Below, in pieces: positions 49,877 through 58,673 of a DNA stretch of 64,000 bases. The translations under genes were made by a program, and so were the position numbers. The stretch lies in NCBI RefSeq assembly GCF_002216065.1, contig NZ_CP022282.1, forward strand, positions 1,860,001 through 1,924,000, read 5' to 3'. Under the pieces are notes generated by a model. That model was not told the DNA's origin. It was given only the letters and a program-made list of their open reading frames with translations, and made no database searches. Position 1 is the first letter of the stretch; every line of letters starts with the position of its first letter. Source of the DNA: Chryseobacterium sp. T16E-39. Lineage in GTDB: Bacteria > Bacteroidota > Bacteroidia > Flavobacteriales > Weeksellaceae.

Positions 49877-49949
49877 GGTTTCTTAGCTCAGTTGGTAGAG
49901 CAATGGATTGAAAATCCATGTGTCCCTGGTTCGATTCCTGGAGAAACCA
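49877..49949 (+). tRNA. tRNA-Phe (GAA), copy 1
   Basis: A 73-base cloverleaf: acceptor GGTTTCT / AGAAACC, D arm GCTC...GAGC, anticodon loop with GAA (GGATTGAAAATCC), T arm with GGTTCGATTCC, discriminator A; CCA is not encoded. Identical to the copy at 51667. Confidence 0.97.
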
Positions 49950-49950
49950 C

Positions 49951-50165: not shown

Positions 50166-51512
50166 ATGAGATTAAAATTATTAACCGATACTTTTTTAGG
50201 TATCTCATTGCTCATTTTTCAATCATGCGCAGAAAGCAATATTGCAACAGAAGACACCATTTCTACGCAAAAGAAAGTATCAGCTTTAGCAAATAACACC
50301 TCTTTCAGTGTACCAGTTGCAGGAAACTCCTTTCTAACAATAAAGCCTTCTGGTGCCAACGAGGTAATCACTTCTACCAAATTAGCCAACTGGACCAGCT
50401 CCAATACGGTTATCAGCACTTATTTCAGAGTAAGCAATACCGGAATATTAAGTATTGGATTAAAAGCCTCTGTCCCATCAGGCAGCAGTGTTGTAAAAGT
50501 AACTATAGGCAATACTTCAAAGAATATCACGTTAACAGGATCAGCTTACACTGATTATAGTGTGGGAGATTTTACGGTTTCTACTCCAGGATATGTAAAA
50601 GTTGATCTTCAGGGAGTATCCAAAACCGGTGGGTATTTTGCGGACCTAACAGATATTACGTTCAGTGGGGCAGCTTCCACCGGAACTAATGTTTTCAGTA
50701 ATGACCCATCTTATTATTATTGGGCCCGCAGAGGACCTTCATGTCATCTGAACTATACCATTCCAACAACAGACAATGTCAGCTATTATTACAATGAAGT
50801 AACAGTGCCTGCAGGAGAAGACAAGATTGGCTCTTATTTTATGGCAAATGGCTTCGGTGAAGGTTATTTCGGCATGCAGGTTAACTCTTCTACAGAAAGA
50901 AGAATTTTATTTTCTGTATGGAGCCCTTTTGAAACGGATGATCCTAACAATATTCCTCCTGATCATAAAATAATCCTCAACAGAGCTGGTAGCGGTGTTA
51001 CTATTGGGGAGTTTGGTAATGAAGGCTCCGGAGGACAAAGTTATTATAAATACAACTGGACGGCCGGGCAAACCTACAAATTCTTATTAAAAGGAGAACC
51101 CGACGGTAATGGAAAAACAGATTATACAGCATGGTTTCTTTCCCCAGATACCACAACCTGGAAACTTATCGCCAGCTGGAAGAGACCGCAAACGACGACT
51201 TATCTTAAAAGATTTTACAGTTTTGTAGAAAATTTCAATCCTGAGAATGGATACCAGGGAAGAAAAGCTGAATTTAAAAATCAATGGGTAAGAACAGCAG
51301 GTGGAAACTGGATGGCCATCTCAGGAGCGAAATTCAGTGTTGACAATACTTATAATGCTCAACAAAGAATCGATGCAATGGGTGGGACAAATAATGGTTC
51401 TTTCTTTTTACAAAATGGAGGATTTTTTAACTCTATCGTAGCTCCGGGAACACAATTTTCAGTTACTGCTCCTAATCAAGCCCCCAATATAAATCTTTCC
51501 ACTCTTCCATAA
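50166..51512 (+). CDS. DUF5077/DUF3472 lipoprotein
   Basis: A 448-residue exported lipoprotein (signal LGISLLIFQSC with lipobox FQSC). Residues about 45-170 form a carbohydrate-binding-like DUF5077 domain (FSVPVAGNSFLTIKPSG, GYVKVDLQGVSKTG); DUF3472 follows at about 185-400 (SYYYWARRGPSCHLNYTIP, FYSFVENFNPENGYQGRKAEFKNQW in part). Such proteins are thought to bind or act on polysaccharides at the cell surface. It lies between the two tRNA-Phe copies and ends at its own terminator. Confidence 0.83.
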   Translation: MRLKLLTDTFLGISLLIFQSCAESNIATEDTISTQKKVSALANNTSFSVPVAGNSFLTIKPSGANEVITSTKLANWTSSNTVISTYFRVSNTGILSIGLKASVPSGSSVVKVTIGNTSKNITLTGSAYTDYSVGDFTVSTPGYVKVDLQGVSKTGGYFADLTDITFSGAASTGTNVFSNDPSYYYWARRGPSCHLNYTIPTTDNVSYYYNEVTVPAGEDKIGSYFMANGFGEGYFGMQVNSSTERRILFSVWSPFETDDPNNIPPDHKIILNRAGSGVTIGEFGNEGSGGQSYYKYNWTAGQTYKFLLKGEPDGNGKTDYTAWFLSPDTTTWKLIASWKRPQTTTYLKRFYSFVENFNPENGYQGRKAEFKNQWVRTAGGNWMAISGAKFSVDNTYNAQQRIDAMGGTNNGSFFLQNGGFFNSIVAPGTQFSVTAPNQAPNINLSTLP

Positions 51513-51534
51513 ATCACTAGATCAAAGATATTCA

Positions 51535-51570
51535 GCCAGTTATTACTTTGAAATAAATAACTGGCTTTTT
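51535..51570 (+). terminator. terminator of the DUF3472 gene
   Basis: Stem GCCAGTTATT / AATAACTGGC, 11-base loop, T run. Confidence 0.85.
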
Positions 51571-51595
51571 ATTTTCATTTAATTTTAATTTTTTG

Positions 51596-51626
51596 TTGCA
51601 TTATATACTAAAAAGCACTATTTTTG
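51596..51626 (+). promoter_or_regulatory. promoter of tRNA-Phe copy 2
   Basis: TTG 51596-51598, 20 bases, TATTTTTG 51619-51626: same spacing as copy 1. Confidence 0.65.
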
Positions 51627-51666
51627 CACCCACTTTAAACAACGAAGTAAGTCAAACAAACATATT

Positions 51667-51739
51667 GGTTTCTTAGCTCAGTTGGTAGAGCAATGGATTG
51701 AAAATCCATGTGTCCCTGGTTCGATTCCTGGAGAAACCA
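51667..51739 (+). tRNA. tRNA-Phe (GAA), copy 2
   Basis: Identical 73-base sequence to the copy at 49877-49949, 1,790 bases downstream, with a similar promoter and terminator. Confidence 0.97.
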
Positions 51740-51740
51740 C

Positions 51741-51768
51741 AAAACCACCTTATATAAGGTGGTTTTTT
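51741..51768 (+). terminator. terminator of tRNA-Phe copy 2
   Basis: Stem AAAACCACCTT / AAGGTGGTTTT, loop ATAT, T run. Confidence 0.85.
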
Positions 51769-51806
51769 ATTTTAAATAGATCAAGTAATTATTTAATTAT
51801 TATACA

Positions 51807-52565
51807 CTATAATAACTTATTGCTTGTAACAAAGGCCAATGCTTCAGAAATATTGCTTACCTGCATTTTCTCAAATAACTTTCTTCGATGAAATTTAATG
51901 GTATCGGGTGAAACAAAAATTTTCTCAGCAATTTTATTGATTGTATATCCCTGTGCGTAGTAGCGTAAAACTTCGAGCTCCCTTTCGCTCAGTTTTATTT
52001 TTTCCTCATTTCTCCATTTTTCCTCTTCAGCATCATACCACCAATAGTCATTAGTTCCCTGTCTTGAAATGGTAATATTTCCAGAATTCGTATTAGTAGA
52101 TAAGGAGACGACCCCCATCGCTTTCCATATTTTACCTTCTTCTGTAAGAAACAAGGGTGTCAGTTTTTGATTGACCAAAATGGCTTTATCCTTATTCAGC
52201 AAGTGGATATCATAAGAAAGGGTATAATATTTTCTTTCCTCAGCAGGAATTTTTTCATAAAACTCATATCCCAACCGATTAACCTTTGATAATAAATCAG
52301 CGTCACTTTTCTGGACATATCTAAAATAAAACTCATACCCCATTTTCTTCACTTCTTCTGCAGTATTACCGCAAAGAAACAAGGGGTTCTCCGAAACATA
52401 CTCAAAATTTCTTTTCTGATAGTCTATTATATATACACTCATATAAATAGCACGGGAAAAGGCATCCGTTACCTCAAGGTAATTATTTAATGCCATAGTT
52501 TCTTCATTTAGATCCTCTTTAACTGTATTCTCAGAAAAAAAGAACCTATTAATATTTTCACTCAT
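51807..52565 (-). CDS. LuxR-type regulator with PAS-like sensor region
   Basis: A 252-residue regulator. Residues about 20-150 look like a PAS-type sensory domain (AIYMSVYIIDYQKRNFEYVSENPLFL); the C-terminal LuxR helix-turn-helix is at about 190-252 (LSERELEVLRYYAQGYTINKIAEKIF, DTIKFHRRKLFEKMQVSNISEA in part). There is no receiver domain. It is transcribed away from the precursor peptide gene, and two perfect palindromes lie in the shared 395-base region, so it is the probable local controller of the peptide system. Confidence 0.87.
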   Translation of the reverse strand: MSENINRFFFSENTVKEDLNEETMALNNYLEVTDAFSRAIYMSVYIIDYQKRNFEYVSENPLFLCGNTAEEVKKMGYEFYFRYVQKSDADLLSKVNRLGYEFYEKIPAEERKYYTLSYDIHLLNKDKAILVNQKLTPLFLTEEGKIWKAMGVVSLSTNTNSGNITISRQGTNDYWWYDAEEEKWRNEEKIKLSERELEVLRYYAQGYTINKIAEKIFVSPDTIKFHRRKLFEKMQVSNISEALAFVTSNKLL

Positions 52566-52619
52566 AAATTCAAATTTGGTTATTGTTTTTTCATGTCATA
52601 TCTGATCTAATTAACAATT

Positions 52620-52635
52620 CTACACTAAAGTGTAG
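52620..52635. promoter_or_regulatory. palindrome near the luxR-type gene
   Basis: CTACACT-AA-AGTGTAG, a perfect 7-bp inverted repeat 55-70 bases upstream of the regulator gene; candidate binding site for that regulator. Confidence 0.45.
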
Positions 52636-52880
52636 CATTTAGTTAATTCAATCCGTCTAAATTTATGAAAAATAATTCCCACGAGCAAGACATCTTTAAC
52701 GAAAATAATTATTGACTATAAGTTGTTTACAACGTCTATAATTTGTTTCCTTAAAAAAACTGAGGCATTTATTTCATTAATACAAGAATTAAAACGCTTC
52801 TCTTGCTTTAAATTGTTTTTAATTTAAAGAAGCATAACAATCTTTCTTTTTGATCTCAATAAGACAGATGTAAAAATACT

Positions 52881-52892
52881 TTCTTGCAAGAA
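52881..52892. promoter_or_regulatory. palindrome upstream of the precursor gene
   Basis: TTCTTGCAAGAA, a perfect 12-bp palindrome about 30 bases upstream of the promoter-like box, where an activator would bind. Confidence 0.45.
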
Positions 52893-52918
52893 GAGACCAG
52901 CGAAGGAGCTAATGTCTA

Positions 52919-52927
52919 TAAACTTTG
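52919..52927 (+). promoter_or_regulatory. promoter-like box of the precursor gene
   Basis: TAAACTTTG, the TAnnTTTG pattern with one extra spacer base; gives a leader of about 28 bases. Confidence 0.35.
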
Positions 52928-52960
52928 ATCCACAAAAAATCATTTTAAAAATTTATTATC

Positions 52961-53122
52961 ATGAAAAAAGCAAATTTTAACGCAAAAGAGTTTTTGAAAG
53001 TAAAAAACCTTTCTCCACTAGATCAAAACAAAGTAAGAGGTGGATTCGGAGCACAAGAAGCTGATAACGTAGTTGTACGTCAAGTACGTCAGGTAGTACA
53101 AGTTGTACAAGTAGTTTCTTAA
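52961..53122 (+). CDS. RiPP precursor peptide with double-glycine leader
   Basis: A 53-residue peptide. The leader (residues 1-28) begins MKKANFNAKEFLKVKNLSPL and ends KVRGG, a typical double-glycine site for C39 peptidases. The 25-residue core has FGAQEADNVV and then four V-x-Q triads (VRQ, VRQ, VVQ, VVQ at residues 39-50) and VVS. It has no Cys, no Thr and one Ser at the end, so lanthionine, thiazole and graspetide-type linkages are unlikely; Arg, Asn, Asp, Gln and Val remain as targets. It is followed by a strong hairpin and then by a cupin enzyme and a C39 ABC exporter on the same strand. Annotators often miss genes this short. Confidence 0.85.
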   Translation: MKKANFNAKEFLKVKNLSPLDQNKVRGGFGAQEADNVVVRQVRQVVQVVQVVS

Positions 53123-53130
53123 TATTACCT

Positions 53131-53168
53131 AGACAACAGAGAACCCCAATTCTCTGTTGTCTTTTTTT
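53131..53168 (+). terminator. hairpin between precursor and cupin genes
   Basis: Perfect 13-bp stem AGACAACAGAGAA / TTCTCTGTTGTCT, loop CCCCAA, T7. Strong enough to terminate most transcripts, so the precursor would be made in excess over the downstream proteins. Confidence 0.9.
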
Positions 53169-53187
53169 ATTTCAAAAACTAAATACT

Positions 53188-54531
53188 ATGGAAAATAATT
53201 TTACTAAAGATTTTTGGGAAAGTTTTATTGCTACCAATAAAAACTTCACTCAAACCTGTGTGATCAAAGATGTCATCTCAGAAGATTTGATCAAAAAACT
53301 GAAAGATGCAGTAGTTGATGGATTAATCAACAGATTTAAAACAAAAGATCATGATGGTTTCAGACTTTATTTTCCTTCTCAGGGAAAAGGTAAAGAAAAT
53401 AATGATTTTGTTGATGAATTATATAAAAACCCTCCTTTTGAAAATGAGGATATCATAGAATATTGTAATCGGGTTTTCAAAGAAAAATTCGGCCTGATCG
53501 TTAATTTCCTTGAAAGACATTCTGATTATATAGCAAAAGAACTTAGACTCATCACTGAACCCCTACTGGAAACCATTGGTATTCCAGCTACAGGAGTAGA
53601 TGTAACTGTTTTTATCGGAAACTACGGTTGGACACCCCTTGGAATCCATCAGGATCACAAAGGGGAAAACGTACTTCATTTCCATTTAGGTCCCGGAGAA
53701 AAAACAATGTACATATGGGATCAGGAAAAATATAAAGACCTTACGGGTACAAAACACAATAATTTTGATATAGAGCCTTTACTTGAACACGCTGAAAAAT
53801 ACGATTTTGGAGCTGGCGACTTATTCTATATGCCATGGAATAAATTTCATATCGGTAAAAGTGATGACCTTTCAGTTGGAGTAACATTTTGGTTCAACAA
53901 CCCTTCGAAGGTTAAATTTTTCGACAGAGTGCTTAATACTTTCTATACCAATTATCTGGACGTTAATAAGGATGTTCTGGAGCCTCAACATAATTACTTA
54001 GAAAATCACCAGACCTTTGAAGAGTTCCTTTCTCTTTTAAAGCTGGACGAAGATATATTAAAAGGATCCACTGAAGCATTCTTTAAATACCTGTATGACG
54101 AATACAAGAGTAGTTTACTAAGCAATGCAGGATGGCAGGCACCTCCTCAAACGAGAGAATCAGAGGATAAATATGATATCGATGGTTATGAATTTTTACT
54201 TGAAAAAGAGATTCATGCCAATGACCCCTTTAAAATGATCTACAAAGTAGATGAAAGCAAAGACACATTCTATCTTTTCGTAAGAGGTTCAAAAATAGAA
54301 ATGAGGTATCATCCTGAGCTAAAAAATATCGTTGATAACCTTAACACCCACAAAAGCTGGAAAGTAACAGATCTGTTAAAAGACCTGGAAACAGAATGGC
54401 CGATAGAAGCCGGTTTATATTTTCTTTCAATGATCTATAACAAAAAAGGGATTGAAATTGTAGGCGAAACTAAAACAGTGAAACAAACTGAGGATATTTT
54501 AACTGAGGATATTTTAATAGAAGAAAAATAA
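53188..54531 (+). CDS. JmjC-like cupin protein, candidate RiPP oxygenase
   Basis: A 447-residue protein with a central cupin domain of the JmjC / ribosomal-oxygenase type. The metal triad fits H154-x-D156 (GIHQDHKGENVLHFHLGPGE) and H221 (AGDLFYMPWNKFHIGKS), with strands YIWDQE and GVTFWF completing the barrel. Family knowledge: such enzymes use Fe(II) and 2-oxoglutarate to hydroxylate protein side chains. The C-terminal third is probably a helical/winged-helix dimer or substrate-binding part. The last residues come from a perfect 15-base tandem repeat (EDILTEDIL). The gene follows the precursor and overlaps the exporter start (TAATG). Hydroxylation of the precursor core is my inference. Confidence 0.78.
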   Translation: MENNFTKDFWESFIATNKNFTQTCVIKDVISEDLIKKLKDAVVDGLINRFKTKDHDGFRLYFPSQGKGKENNDFVDELYKNPPFENEDIIEYCNRVFKEKFGLIVNFLERHSDYIAKELRLITEPLLETIGIPATGVDVTVFIGNYGWTPLGIHQDHKGENVLHFHLGPGEKTMYIWDQEKYKDLTGTKHNNFDIEPLLEHAEKYDFGAGDLFYMPWNKFHIGKSDDLSVGVTFWFNNPSKVKFFDRVLNTFYTNYLDVNKDVLEPQHNYLENHQTFEEFLSLLKLDEDILKGSTEAFFKYLYDEYKSSLLSNAGWQAPPQTRESEDKYDIDGYEFLLEKEIHANDPFKMIYKVDESKDTFYLFVRGSKIEMRYHPELKNIVDNLNTHKSWKVTDLLKDLETEWPIEAGLYFLSMIYNKKGIEIVGETKTVKQTEDILTEDILIEEK

Positions 54532-56732
54532 TGAAATTTATTCCTCAACATGATAAAATGGACTGTGGTCCGTCATGTCTGGCTATGATCACTGCTTATT
54601 ATGGCAAAGCATACGGACTACAGTACTTACGTGATTATTGTTTTATATCCAGGGAAGGTGTTTCCATTCTTAGTATGAATGATGCAGCCACCAAAATTGG
54701 ATTTAAGACTTTAGCCACACAACTTGCTATTGAGGATTTAAAAAATGAATTCTTACCATGTGTCTTGCACTGGAACCAAAATCACTTTGTAGTTCTTACT
54801 AAAATTTCCAAACACTTTTTTAATAAGGAAAAAATATATACAATCGCTGATCCGGCACATGGAATTATCAAATTAACAGAAACTGAGTTTAAAAAGTCGT
54901 GGCTGAAAAACTCTGACAAAGGTATAGTATTGCTACTAGAGCCTACAGAAAACTTTTTCCAGGCTGAAAATGTTAAAGATAAAAAGGTATCCTTACAATA
55001 CGTTTATCAATATCTGAGTCCACATAAAAAACAGTTCCTGTGGTTATCATTGATTCTTCTGCTGGGAACAGTGGCTACTCTGGCCTTCCCTATTCTTACA
55101 CAAAAACTGATTGATGATGGTGTGAATAAGAAAAATCTAAGCATCATCACTTACATCCTTCTTGCCCAGCTGACATTTTTCCTTGGAAATATCATATTAG
55201 GAGTATTCCGTAACTGGATCATGTTGAGTGTTGGCAGTAGATTGAATATTAAAATCATATCCGACTTCCTTAAAAAACTGATGAGCTTACCGATAAAGTT
55301 CTTTGACACTAAATTTATGGGTGATTTTAATCAAAGAATACAGGATCATGAAAGGATAGAGCTTTTTCTTACTTCACAGAGCTTAGCGACTCTTTTCTCA
55401 ATGATTACCTTCTCGGTATTCTTTGTTGTCCTGTGGACCTATGATTTCAGGATTCTTGCGACCTATTTTATATTAACCATAATTTCAGTTGTATGGTCGC
55501 TGTATTGGCTAAAAAAAATAAAATCGTTAGATTATTTCAGATTCCGTGAAAAAAGTGAAAATCAGGAATCCATTTATGAGATCATTAATGGTATTTCCGA
55601 GATGAAACTGAATCAGTTTGAAGAACACAAACGTAAGGAATGGGAAGAAATCCAGCAAAAATTATTTAAAGTAAATATCCGGATTTTAAAGCTTGACCAA
55701 ATCCAACTTTCCGGATTCGAATTCATCAACCAGCTAAAGAATATTATCGTTACTTTCCTCGCTGCTTCTTTCGTAGTAAAGGGACATATGACATTAGGAG
55801 CCCTGCTGAGTGTATCCTATATCATCGGGCAAATGAACTCTCCCGTTAGCCAATTGATCAGCTTCTTTAAATCTTTACAGGATGCTAAGTTAAGCTTATC
55901 CCGTTTAAATGAAGTTCAAAATCATCCGGAAGAAGAACAGGAAGATCTGGTTCCTTTAATGAATGAAAAGTACACCACTCAAAACGGAATTCAGAAAGGG
56001 ATCTATTTTAAAAATGTCTCTTTTCAGTATGAGGGACCTCAATCCCCTTTTGTTCTTAAGGACATTGATCTTTTTATCCCTCAGGGAAAAGTTACTGCCA
56101 TTGTTGGAGCAAGTGGCAGTGGAAAAACAACATTGATGAAATTATTATTGAAATTCTATGAACCAACTTCTGGGGATATTTATTTCAATCATTCCAATTT
56201 AAAAGAAATTTCTCCAAAGAATTTAAGAAAAAACTGTGGGGTGGTGATGCAGGATGGTTATATATTTTCTGATACCATTGAAAGAAACATCGCAACCGGG
56301 GAAGAAATTCCGGATGATGATGTATTAGACTTTGCCCTTAAAACGGCCAATATTAAATCATTTGTAGATGAACTTCCTTTAGGACTAAACACAAAAATCG
56401 GAGCTTCAGGAAATGGAATATCTGGTGGGCAAAAACAAAGGATATTGATTGCAAGAGCCGTTTACAAACAGCCTTATTTTGTATTCTTTGATGAAGCGAC
56501 CTCTGCACTGGATGCAGAGAACGAAAAAGTCATCCATGATCATTTACAGGATTTCTTTAAAGGTAAAACTGTTCTGATTATTGCACACAGGCTTTCAACC
56601 GTTAAAAATGCAGACCAGATCATTGTTTTGAAAAAAGGAGAGATCGTAGAACAGGGAAATCACCAGTCGCTGGTAGAAAAAAAATCAGATTACTACAATC
56701 TGGTTAAAAACCAACTGGAACTGGGTGCGTAA
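54531..56732 (+). CDS. peptidase-containing ABC transporter (C39 exporter)
   Basis: A 733-residue PCAT-type exporter that removes double-glycine leaders and exports the mature peptide. The C39 peptidase domain (about 1-125) has catalytic C12 (MDCGPSCLAMI), H86 (NQNHFVVL) and D108 (IADPAHG). A six-helix membrane domain follows (about 165-445), then the ATPase domain with Walker A GASGSGKTT near 526, Q-loop VMQDGYIF, signature SGGQKQR near 631, Walker B FVFFDEATSALD near 650 and the His switch AHRLS. All key residues are present. Its ATG overlaps the cupin stop codon. Confidence 0.95.
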   Translation: MKFIPQHDKMDCGPSCLAMITAYYGKAYGLQYLRDYCFISREGVSILSMNDAATKIGFKTLATQLAIEDLKNEFLPCVLHWNQNHFVVLTKISKHFFNKEKIYTIADPAHGIIKLTETEFKKSWLKNSDKGIVLLLEPTENFFQAENVKDKKVSLQYVYQYLSPHKKQFLWLSLILLLGTVATLAFPILTQKLIDDGVNKKNLSIITYILLAQLTFFLGNIILGVFRNWIMLSVGSRLNIKIISDFLKKLMSLPIKFFDTKFMGDFNQRIQDHERIELFLTSQSLATLFSMITFSVFFVVLWTYDFRILATYFILTIISVVWSLYWLKKIKSLDYFRFREKSENQESIYEIINGISEMKLNQFEEHKRKEWEEIQQKLFKVNIRILKLDQIQLSGFEFINQLKNIIVTFLAASFVVKGHMTLGALLSVSYIIGQMNSPVSQLISFFKSLQDAKLSLSRLNEVQNHPEEEQEDLVPLMNEKYTTQNGIQKGIYFKNVSFQYEGPQSPFVLKDIDLFIPQGKVTAIVGASGSGKTTLMKLLLKFYEPTSGDIYFNHSNLKEISPKNLRKNCGVVMQDGYIFSDTIERNIATGEEIPDDDVLDFALKTANIKSFVDELPLGLNTKIGASGNGISGGQKQRILIARAVYKQPYFVFFDEATSALDAENEKVIHDHLQDFFKGKTVLIIAHRLSTVKNADQIIVLKKGEIVEQGNHQSLVEKKSDYYNLVKNQLELGA

Positions 56733-56764
56733 AACAATACAACTTCAATCACTATTTAAAAATA

Positions 56765-56795
56765 AAATGCCGGGTTTTTAAAAAACCCGGCATTT
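56765..56795. terminator. bidirectional terminator
   Basis: Stem AAATGCCGGGTTTTT / AAAAACCCGGCATTT around a one-base centre; GC core GCCGGG. Ends the peptide-system operon and the convergent outer-membrane protein operon. Confidence 0.85.
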
Positions 56796-56799
56796 GCTA

Positions 56800-57480
56800 T
56801 TAAAAAGGCAGTTTATAATTATACCCAACCTGTAAAAGATAAGGCAGCTGCGGTTTTGTTTTTAAGTCTTGTGATACGATAGCTCCCACTTTAAGATATA
56901 CTTCCTGATTACTAAAAGAGTATCCTCCCTGAACTGCACCATAGAAGTTCCCTCCGGTTGCCGGTTCATACCACCCATCTTTTACGTCAGGATAATCTTC
57001 TTTGTAGTGGTCAGTATGTTTAAAATGGGTGACGATGGCTTTATCAAATCCAATTTCAAGGGCAGCAAACCATTTTGGACGATAATATCCGATAGTTCCG
57101 GACATATCCAAGCCAAAATTCATGAGTTGTACATTTTCATTTTCATATTTCCGGAAAATACCCTGAGCTTTCGCTGAAAACTGTAGATTATTAAGTTTTA
57201 ACCATCTTACATTTGCACCTGCTTTCGTTTTAAAATCATCAAATAAACGCTCTCCCATAGGAACAGACGCTTCTATATTAACAATGGTGGGAAACAATTT
57301 GCTGTTGAATTTATATCCATATCCAAGACCAACAATAGCTCCATATTCAGCCCCTACATTCACATTGAGTATATGTCTTTCCTTGTCAGTAAGTCCTCCC
57401 CAGTTTACCGTCTGTGATAATGCCATGTTAGATACCAGGCTAAAAAAAGCTGCTGTTATATATAATTTATTATTTTTCAT
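56800..57480 (-). CDS. outer-membrane beta-barrel protein
   Basis: A 226-residue predicted outer-membrane barrel. Signal peptide LYITAAFFSLVSNMALSQ, then alternating amphipathic strands and a final strand ending LQVGYNYKLPF with a C-terminal Phe, the usual barrel-assembly signal. No enzyme motif. It begins five bases after the hydrolase gene, so both are one operon. A role with the neighbouring peptide system (export or immunity) is conceivable but not shown. Confidence 0.75.
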   Translation of the reverse strand: MKNNKLYITAAFFSLVSNMALSQTVNWGGLTDKERHILNVNVGAEYGAIVGLGYGYKFNSKLFPTIVNIEASVPMGERLFDDFKTKAGANVRWLKLNNLQFSAKAQGIFRKYENENVQLMNFGLDMSGTIGYYRPKWFAALEIGFDKAIVTHFKHTDHYKEDYPDVKDGWYEPATGGNFYGAVQGGYSFSNQEVYLKVGAIVSQDLKTKPQLPYLLQVGYNYKLPF

Positions 57481-57485
57481 TTCTC

Positions 57486-58505
57486 TTAAAGGCTGTTGAT
57501 AAAGTTGATAATTTTAGGTTTTGTCTGAGAGTTCCATGCATCCTTATTGGTGACGATACCATCGTGTCCGACATTTGAAACTTTAACGCTCTCCACATGT
57601 TTATAGGAAGAAGTTATCTTTTGAGCCCAGGAATCAGGATACGCCTTGTTTCTTTCACTGTAAAAAAACAATACCGGAGCGTTATAGTTTTGTAGACCGG
57701 CAGAAAAGTCTGATTTGTATTTATCCCCTACTTCAAACAAAGCGTCCATTATTACCGCTCCATCTCTCCAACCCGCACTTGAGTCAAAATCACCCTCTCC
57801 TGTAATATCATTTTTTGAACTCAGCATCGACATTTTATAATCTAATATTTCGTGCTGATCCTCTTTCCCGGAAATAAACTGATCCAGATAAGTGGCATCA
57901 TTAAGAATCTCACCCCATAATTTAAAGGATCTTGATTCCTTTACATAGTCCTCAACGTCATCCCATTTTAATCCGCCGGGTTCACATACTATAAGTCCCT
58001 GGACAGCTTCAGGATATTTACCAGCATATCCTGAAGCTAGCATAGCTCCCCACGAGTGGCCTAATAAGACGACTTTTTGATTGGGTGTCTTTTTATAATG
58101 GGCAATTACTGACTTTAATTCCTCAAACATAATATTGGTAGCCCCTGCTCCCTGTGACGTGTAAGAATTTTTGGAAAAGCGCTGTGATAATCCAGAACCC
58201 CGCTGATCATAAAACACAACACGATATCCCTGGGCGGCTAGATCCTTGCAATTCAGAAGGTATCTATAATCTCCACCAGGCCCGCCGTGAAGGGCAATAA
58301 TAAGAGTTCCGTTTTCAGGACCAAAAGCTTCAGAATGGAGTAAAGCGCCGTTGACACTGATTGCCGGCAAAGAAGAATCCTGGTCTACTGTTTTTGGAAC
58401 TAAATTTCCAGGCTCATCTATTGTCCGTCCCTCGGTACAGGAAAATAGTAATGTAAAAATTGTAAAAGAAGCGACCAAGGCATTCTTTTTTCTTAATGTT
58501 GTCAT
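57486..58505 (-). CDS. exported alpha/beta hydrolase, proline iminopeptidase-like (S33)
   Basis: A lipoprotein (signal LVASFTIFTLLFSC, lipobox LFSC) with an S33-type alpha/beta hydrolase domain. Motifs: HGGPGGDYRYL for the oxyanion hole, VVFYDQRGSGLSQRF, nucleophile GHSWGAML, and a C-terminal VGHDG with the catalytic His. These mark proline iminopeptidase-like peptidases. I start at ATG 58505 directly before the signal; the frame reaches ATG 58544. It would sit in the periplasm or at the surface and could trim small peptides. Confidence 0.85.
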   Translation of the reverse strand: MTTLRKKNALVASFTIFTLLFSCTEGRTIDEPGNLVPKTVDQDSSLPAISVNGALLHSEAFGPENGTLIIALHGGPGGDYRYLLNCKDLAAQGYRVVFYDQRGSGLSQRFSKNSYTSQGAGATNIMFEELKSVIAHYKKTPNQKVVLLGHSWGAMLASGYAGKYPEAVQGLIVCEPGGLKWDDVEDYVKESRSFKLWGEILNDATYLDQFISGKEDQHEILDYKMSMLSSKNDITGEGDFDSSAGWRDGAVIMDALFEVGDKYKSDFSAGLQNYNAPVLFFYSERNKAYPDSWAQKITSSYKHVESVKVSNVGHDGIVTNKDAWNSQTKPKIINFINSL

Positions 58506-58673
58506 AGTTTTCGGTTTAAAAATATTGATGCAAAGATTCATCAATTCCGAAAGCTAAGCGCCCCAACAGGAAGGTTGGCCCATGAAAAACAGCAAATACA
58601 AATAAATGACTATCAATTAATTATGCAAGTTGAAACGATTCCCTGAAACATGAAACGCTGAAAAAGAAAAGAA

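Follow-up and report, generated by a model that had tools for sequence, protein, structure and literature searches.

What would be made by a locus in which a 53-codon gene with a double-glycine leader precedes genes for a JmjC-type cupin and a C39-peptidase ABC exporter? The question is raised by a stretch of Chryseobacterium sp. T16E-39 DNA (contig NZ_CP022282.1, positions 1,860,001 to 1,924,000; the whole stretch of 64,000 nucleotides is hereafter the window, and coordinates are counted from its first letter). A first-pass annotation, made from the letters alone, had proposed a ribosomally synthesized and post-translationally modified peptide (RiPP) system here, and the four genes that it named were all found in place: the precursor (52961-53122, + strand; from its open reading frame (ORF) and translation), the cupin protein of 447 aa (53188-54531, + strand), the exporter of 733 aa (54531-56732, + strand) and a divergent gene for a LuxR-type regulator of 252 aa (51807-52565, - strand). 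The locus is, in our view, likely a RiPP cassette: a YcfD-like JmjC protein would hydroxylate several side chains of the precursor core, and the C39 exporter would cut after Gly-Gly and secrete the product. The most probable assignment is to an undescribed RiPP class, with a JmjC enzyme that hydroxylates side chains iteratively as the most probable chemistry.

Precursors with low-complexity cores

The precursor consists of a 28-aa leader with a Gly-Gly end (MKKANFNAKEFLKVKNLSPLDQNKVRGG; 52961-53044, + strand; delimited by the ORF and a leader model) and a 25-aa core plus stop (53045-53122, + strand; from translation, codon and shuffle analysis), in which FGAQEADN is followed by a V/R/Q repeat, VVVRQVRQVVQVVQVVS. 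The leader motif common to the family is FLxxKxLSPLE/DxxKxRGG. A leader model trained on ORFs picked by regular expression in the same loci gave 71 matches among the 7333 small ORFs of 65 family loci (some being the same locus from two collections), and all 71 shared the strand of the JmjC gene closest to them, at a distance of 6 to 922 bp (median 134). Searching NCBIfam with the window precursor and seven family precursors returned no family at E 1 or less.

The family cores are of low complexity, a feature absent from the first-pass annotation, as were the hairpin and the C-terminal domain of the cupin described below. Besides the window core they include KVKVKVKVKIK, KEKEKEKEKEK, TVTVTVTVTVTVTVT, VKETVKETVTET, HHHDHD and KCKCKCKC, with VVQ, KV, KE, TV and H/D as repeat kinds and Gln runs that reach 15. 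Identity at lag 3 was 0.50 in the window core, a value attained by none of 5000 shuffles. Among 43 cores (non-redundant at 75%), 21 had an entropy below the 1% quantile of pieces of window ORFs, compared with 0/43 leaders, so that about half of the cores miss this threshold; 14 exceeded their own shuffles in periodicity at p 0.01 or less. Synonymous codons are mixed inside the core runs (CAA/CAG; GTA/GTT/GTG), which rules out mere DNA slippage. Relative to locus L002, the window core carries four synonymous and no non-synonymous changes; the cores of L056 and L057 are five changes apart, synonymous only. Because codons are mixed and near-relative cores differ only synonymously, the repeats are maintained at the protein level. 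Cys is present in 2/57 distinct family cores, compared with 9/9 control cores chosen by hand from Gly-Gly (GG) ORFs near other C39 exporters and in the genome G080 (other GG ORFs there were omitted).

The synonymous-only changes relative to L002, the period-3 repetition beyond shuffles and the confinement of the leader family to the JmjC-carrying genomes of the genus (16/173, see below) together rule out a chance ORF. With a short precursor gene, a conserved leader, a variable core and an adjoining gene for a putative modifying enzyme, the locus has the make-up of a RiPP. The gap between the precursor and the JmjC gene holds a terminator-like perfect hairpin of 13 bp and, after it, a T-run (53131-53162, + strand; hairpin scan). 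Similar hairpins occur in 27/43 distinct precursor-to-JmjC gaps of the family, compared with 6% in mononucleotide-shuffled gaps. From this recurrence we suggest that transcription of the precursor exceeds that of the enzymes, the hairpin probably lowering enzyme expression relative to precursor.

A JmjC protein that travels with the precursor

The cupin (assigned from Pfam, alignment and predicted fold) is a predicted 2-oxoglutarate oxygenase and candidate core-modifying enzyme. The metal triad HxD...H, already recognised in the first-pass annotation, consists of H154, D156 and H221, which occur in 121, 121 and 120 of 121 aligned sequences, respectively (the window plus 120 homologues among the matches listed, of 181). 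Two further residues, H164 and H166 (HxH; 53677-53685), are invariant in 121/121. The Pfam JmjC_2 (PF08007) match fell below its cut-off (19.9 vs a gathering threshold of 22 bits), and the JmjC label therefore rests mainly on the predicted fold, which together with the triad is consistent with a JmjC/2-oxoglutarate oxygenase. In fold comparisons of the prediction, the closest solved structures were YcfD, NO66 and MINA53, which are protein side-chain hydroxylases. A single-sequence search of solved structures found nothing, and the JmjC profile matched no ribosomal oxygenase in the PDB at E 10 or less (the best of three matches was 3al5, E 0.13).

The C-terminal domain (residues 328-428; 54169-54471, + strand; structure prediction and Foldseek) is predicted to form strands followed by three helices. 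Foldseek placed RiPP proteins bearing a RiPP recognition element (RRE) on top, at E 0.009-0.06, and the winged helices of ribosomal oxygenases (ROX) scored equally. The domain is thus predicted to be an RRE-like winged helix and may be the leader-docking site. With a predicted winged-helix domain C-terminal to its JmjC domain, the protein also has the arrangement of a ROX; the genomic context points to a peptide rather than a ribosomal protein as the substrate.

Do homologues of this protein recur beside GG-leader peptides and C39 transporters, as the first-pass annotation had proposed to ask? A contig scan found 40 related loci. They come from Chryseobacterium, Flavobacterium, Aquimarina, Kordia, Zobellia, Tenacibaculum, Pedobacter, Chitinophaga, Niastella and other genera, with Chromobacterium, Paucibacter and Massilia as the Pseudomonadota among them. 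A leader-family precursor lies near the JmjC gene in 33/40 loci and a C39 exporter in the flank of 36/40, on the opposite strand in some (e.g., L013-L015, Chromobacterium). This outcome favours the proposed reading, which by the refuting condition of the first-pass annotation would have fallen had close homologues been without a short GG-leader peptide. The seven loci without a model-found precursor start at a contig edge (L007, L026), carry a divergent GG-leader ORF (L036, L040) or have none (L037-L039); those without a C39 exporter are on short contigs (L011, L038), have an ABC transporter without C39 (L037) or hold broken JmjC genes (L039). When 173 genomes of the genus were searched, the JmjC and precursor profiles matched an identical 16 and neither matched the other 157; the 16 positives coincide partly by construction, because the leader model came from ORFs of the same loci and the precursor alignment includes sequences of several of these 16, and the 157 negatives are unaffected. 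A family-level search gave matches in 21/320 genomes, the genus's 16 included. Of 395 genomes drawn from the whole class, three had a JmjC match, among them the window genome itself and one with a weak match (E 1.1e-4).

The JmjC gene is single-copy in the window genome; two or three JmjC genes stand together in 15/40 loci (one of the 15 broken), and one locus carries six precursors. Core class tracks the JmjC tree, with 14 changes compared with a shuffled mean of 34 (0/200 shuffles as low), where classes follow our own composition rules, assigned to loci rather than to single enzymes, and where near-copies add to the signal. The tree keeps 54/59 rows (those <400 aa were dropped), and several long branches make parts of it unsure. 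The poly-Q class alone was not clearly clustered (63/500 shuffles as low). Chromobacterium and Paucibacter carry the system (L028, L030, L033, L034, L035) with His-rich cores and one Q-run, and Chitinophaga has in common with Chromobacterium a duplicated JmjC pair that goes with His-rich cores, which suggests transfer between phyla.

An exporter and a regulator in an exchangeable slot

The exporter (assigned from Pfam, residues and neighbourhoods) combines a C39 peptidase (PF03412, E 8.8e-33; about residues 2-139) with ABC transmembrane (PF00664) and ATPase (PF00005) domains. Q6, C12, H85 and D107, which we take to be the catalytic residues, are all present, in agreement with the first-pass annotation, as is the coupling to the JmjC gene by a one-base overlap (TAATG). 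The protein is predicted to cut after Gly-Gly and to export the core. None of 25 NCBIfam models among the matches listed attained its cut-off. Because exporters of this kind occur in 169/173 genomes of the genus (E 1e-100 or less) and the precursor in 16/173, the exporter alone is no predictor of the precursor. The window genome encodes four full-length exporters of this kind; the three others (L097, L098, L099) have Cys-containing GG peptides nearby and seem to mark separate RiPP or bacteriocin loci.

Nineteen exporter loci without a JmjC gene were compared, with flanks of at most 1.5 kb, and four of these places were examined further. In G080, the genome of another species of the genus, the slot (L148, 709-15457; window 50166-58544) holds a class I lanthipeptide module instead of the JmjC gene and precursor. 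Around it are kept a DUF3472 gene (87% identity to the window over 124 aa), the LuxR gene (83%), the exporter (69%) and genes for a 226-aa protein (89%) and an alpha/beta hydrolase (90%). The stretch from LuxR to exporter is occupied by a TonB-receptor-like gene, two GG precursors that contain Cys, a pair of LanC-like genes, a luciferase-like gene and LanB. The G080 module resembles the JmjC cassettes in its slot, LuxR gene, C39 exporter and a receptor family common to related JmjC loci; it differs in having LanB/LanC in place of JmjC, another leader and Cys/Ser/Thr cores. Membership of the window locus in the lanthipeptides was rejected, since its operon has no Lan gene and its core no Cys.

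A whole modification module has thus been exchanged with regulator and exporter retained. Because the JmjC gene and precursor are swapped together, they behave as an exchangeable unit, and this single swap is our strongest genetic argument for the JmjC protein acting on the precursor. It also suggests that LuxR and exporter serve whatever module occupies the slot. The first-pass annotation had counted the LuxR gene (identified by Pfam and neighbourhood comparison) within the JmjC system. The divergent gene is indeed there, but it occurs in only 9/40 loci plus the window, and beside a lanthipeptide module in G080; we therefore reject it as a dedicated JmjC partner and assign it to the chromosomal slot.

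Proposed route, rival explanations and known systems

We infer that the JmjC protein modifies the core, by the following route. The precursor would be made in excess, with the terminator-like hairpin parting it from the enzyme genes, and its conserved leader would dock on the C-terminal, RRE-like part of the JmjC protein. Repeating core residues would then be hydroxylated at the Fe(II)/2-oxoglutarate site, the target differing by clade (Lys, Gln, His or Val/Thr/Arg/Gln cores), after which the C39 domain would remove the leader and the ABC part export the core. An OMP_b-brl_3/TonB-receptor-like outer-membrane protein is also encoded at about half of the related loci (21/40; Pfam on one member). 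More tentatively, it is possible that these loci form a new RiPP class, in which a ROX-type JmjC enzyme with its own leader-docking domain iteratively hydroxylates low-complexity repeats at a target that changes from clade to clade (Lys, Gln, His, Val/Thr/Arg), and that two phyla secrete poly-hydroxylated peptides, e.g., (TV)n, (KE)n and poly-Gln. If true, this would tie the ribosomal-protein-hydroxylating family of bacteria and humans to natural-product biosynthesis, provide a one-enzyme system for repeat-peptide hydroxylation and add a RiPP class with simple-repeat cores, a sequence type easily dismissed as low-complexity noise.

Could the JmjC protein instead modify the core by another oxidation, such as desaturation or the formation of cross-links or rings among the repeat residues? 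2-oxoglutarate enzymes carry out varied oxidations, and the regular repeat spacing would suit cross-links. A 2025 paper that by its title concerns dioxygenase-catalysed macrocyclization in RiPPs is also cited in PMC12710340. Nonetheless, we regard such an outcome as unlikely, given that the closest solved folds are side-chain hydroxylases and that the nearest RiPP precedent, BipG, gives +16 Da. The role of the product is a separate matter, compatible with hydroxylation: hydroxylated His/Asp, Cys or Lys repeats might bind metal, and an outer-membrane receptor might re-import the complex. Beta-hydroxy-Asp and -His serve as siderophore ligands, some cores read HHHDHD or KCKCKCKC, and the receptor-like gene is frequent. 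However, poly-Q, TV and KV cores are without the usual metal ligands, the window has no adjoining receptor gene (the best match of its genome to the L008 receptor is 34% identical), and the receptor is not specific to JmjC loci because the same family also occurs in the lanthipeptide module, so that a metallophore appears rather improbable.

Least probable, in our judgement, is that the core is secreted unmodified and the JmjC protein acts elsewhere, e.g., on a cellular protein for self-protection. The solved fold relatives act on ribosomal proteins, according to their structure titles, and the activity on the core is itself a prediction. Yet the strict pairing of precursor and JmjC gene across the 173 genomes, the tracking of core class with the JmjC tree, the tandem JmjC genes and the slot swap that exchanges both genes while the exporter stays all argue against this reading.

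The JmjC oxygenases nearest in function are those of biphenomycin-type RiPPs. BipG hydroxylates an ornithine of the biphenomycin precursor (PMC12707348), and PbsQ and BpmG are related JmjC/cupin enzymes (PMC12257519); the likeness is a JmjC-type oxygenase acting on a RiPP precursor side chain. In those systems, however, the JmjC enzyme is one among MNIO, arginase, B12 radical SAM and TldD-type protease enzymes, with an aromatic FRF motif and an MFS transporter, whereas the window has repeat cores, a C39 exporter and the JmjC protein as sole candidate tailoring enzyme of its operon. Biphenomycin-type membership was rejected, as the operon has no MNIO, B12 radical SAM or arginase gene and no FRF-type motif. 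The window protein resembles the ribosomal oxygenases YcfD/ROXA, MINA53 and NO66 in the kind and order of its predicted parts, a JmjC fold with the metal triad and then a winged-helix-like domain at the C-terminus; it differs in its tie to exported precursors, its extra invariant H164 and H166 and its lack of a PDB sequence match to them at E 10 or less. According to PMC12710340, fish and algae have PF08007 JmjC proteins with a fused RRE-like domain, and one sentence there puts bacterial homologues in RiPP-like contexts; its section 6 describes no precursors, cores or class. The first-pass annotation knew of no class with a JmjC-like cupin as sole tailoring enzyme beside a C39 exporter in Bacteroidota, and we likewise found none with these features in open-licence PMC papers, although a subscription paper may hold one. 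GG leader, C39 exporter and JmjC oxygenase are known kinds, and as far as our searches reach their combination and the repeat cores are new.

The further claim that the cupin is the sole tailoring gene holds for the window operon, where Pfam on six window ORFs gave no other candidate, but not for 7/40 loci (L004, L005, L006, L016, L017, L020, L021), where a ThiF-family gene is present as well, together with an unnamed gene of ~220 aa (Pfam on one member each). These genes sit around the LuxR gene, the L004 ~220-aa member has no Pfam or NCBIfam match, and a second tailoring step is possible. In L039, L061 and L063 the JmjC genes are interrupted by frame breaks or in-frame stops, which may reflect loss of the cassette in some lineages or assembly errors. 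Directly beside the window cassette, a DUF5077/DUF3472 gene is flanked by two tRNA-Phe (gaa) genes (49877-49950 and 51667-51740), and this pair is a possible integration point.
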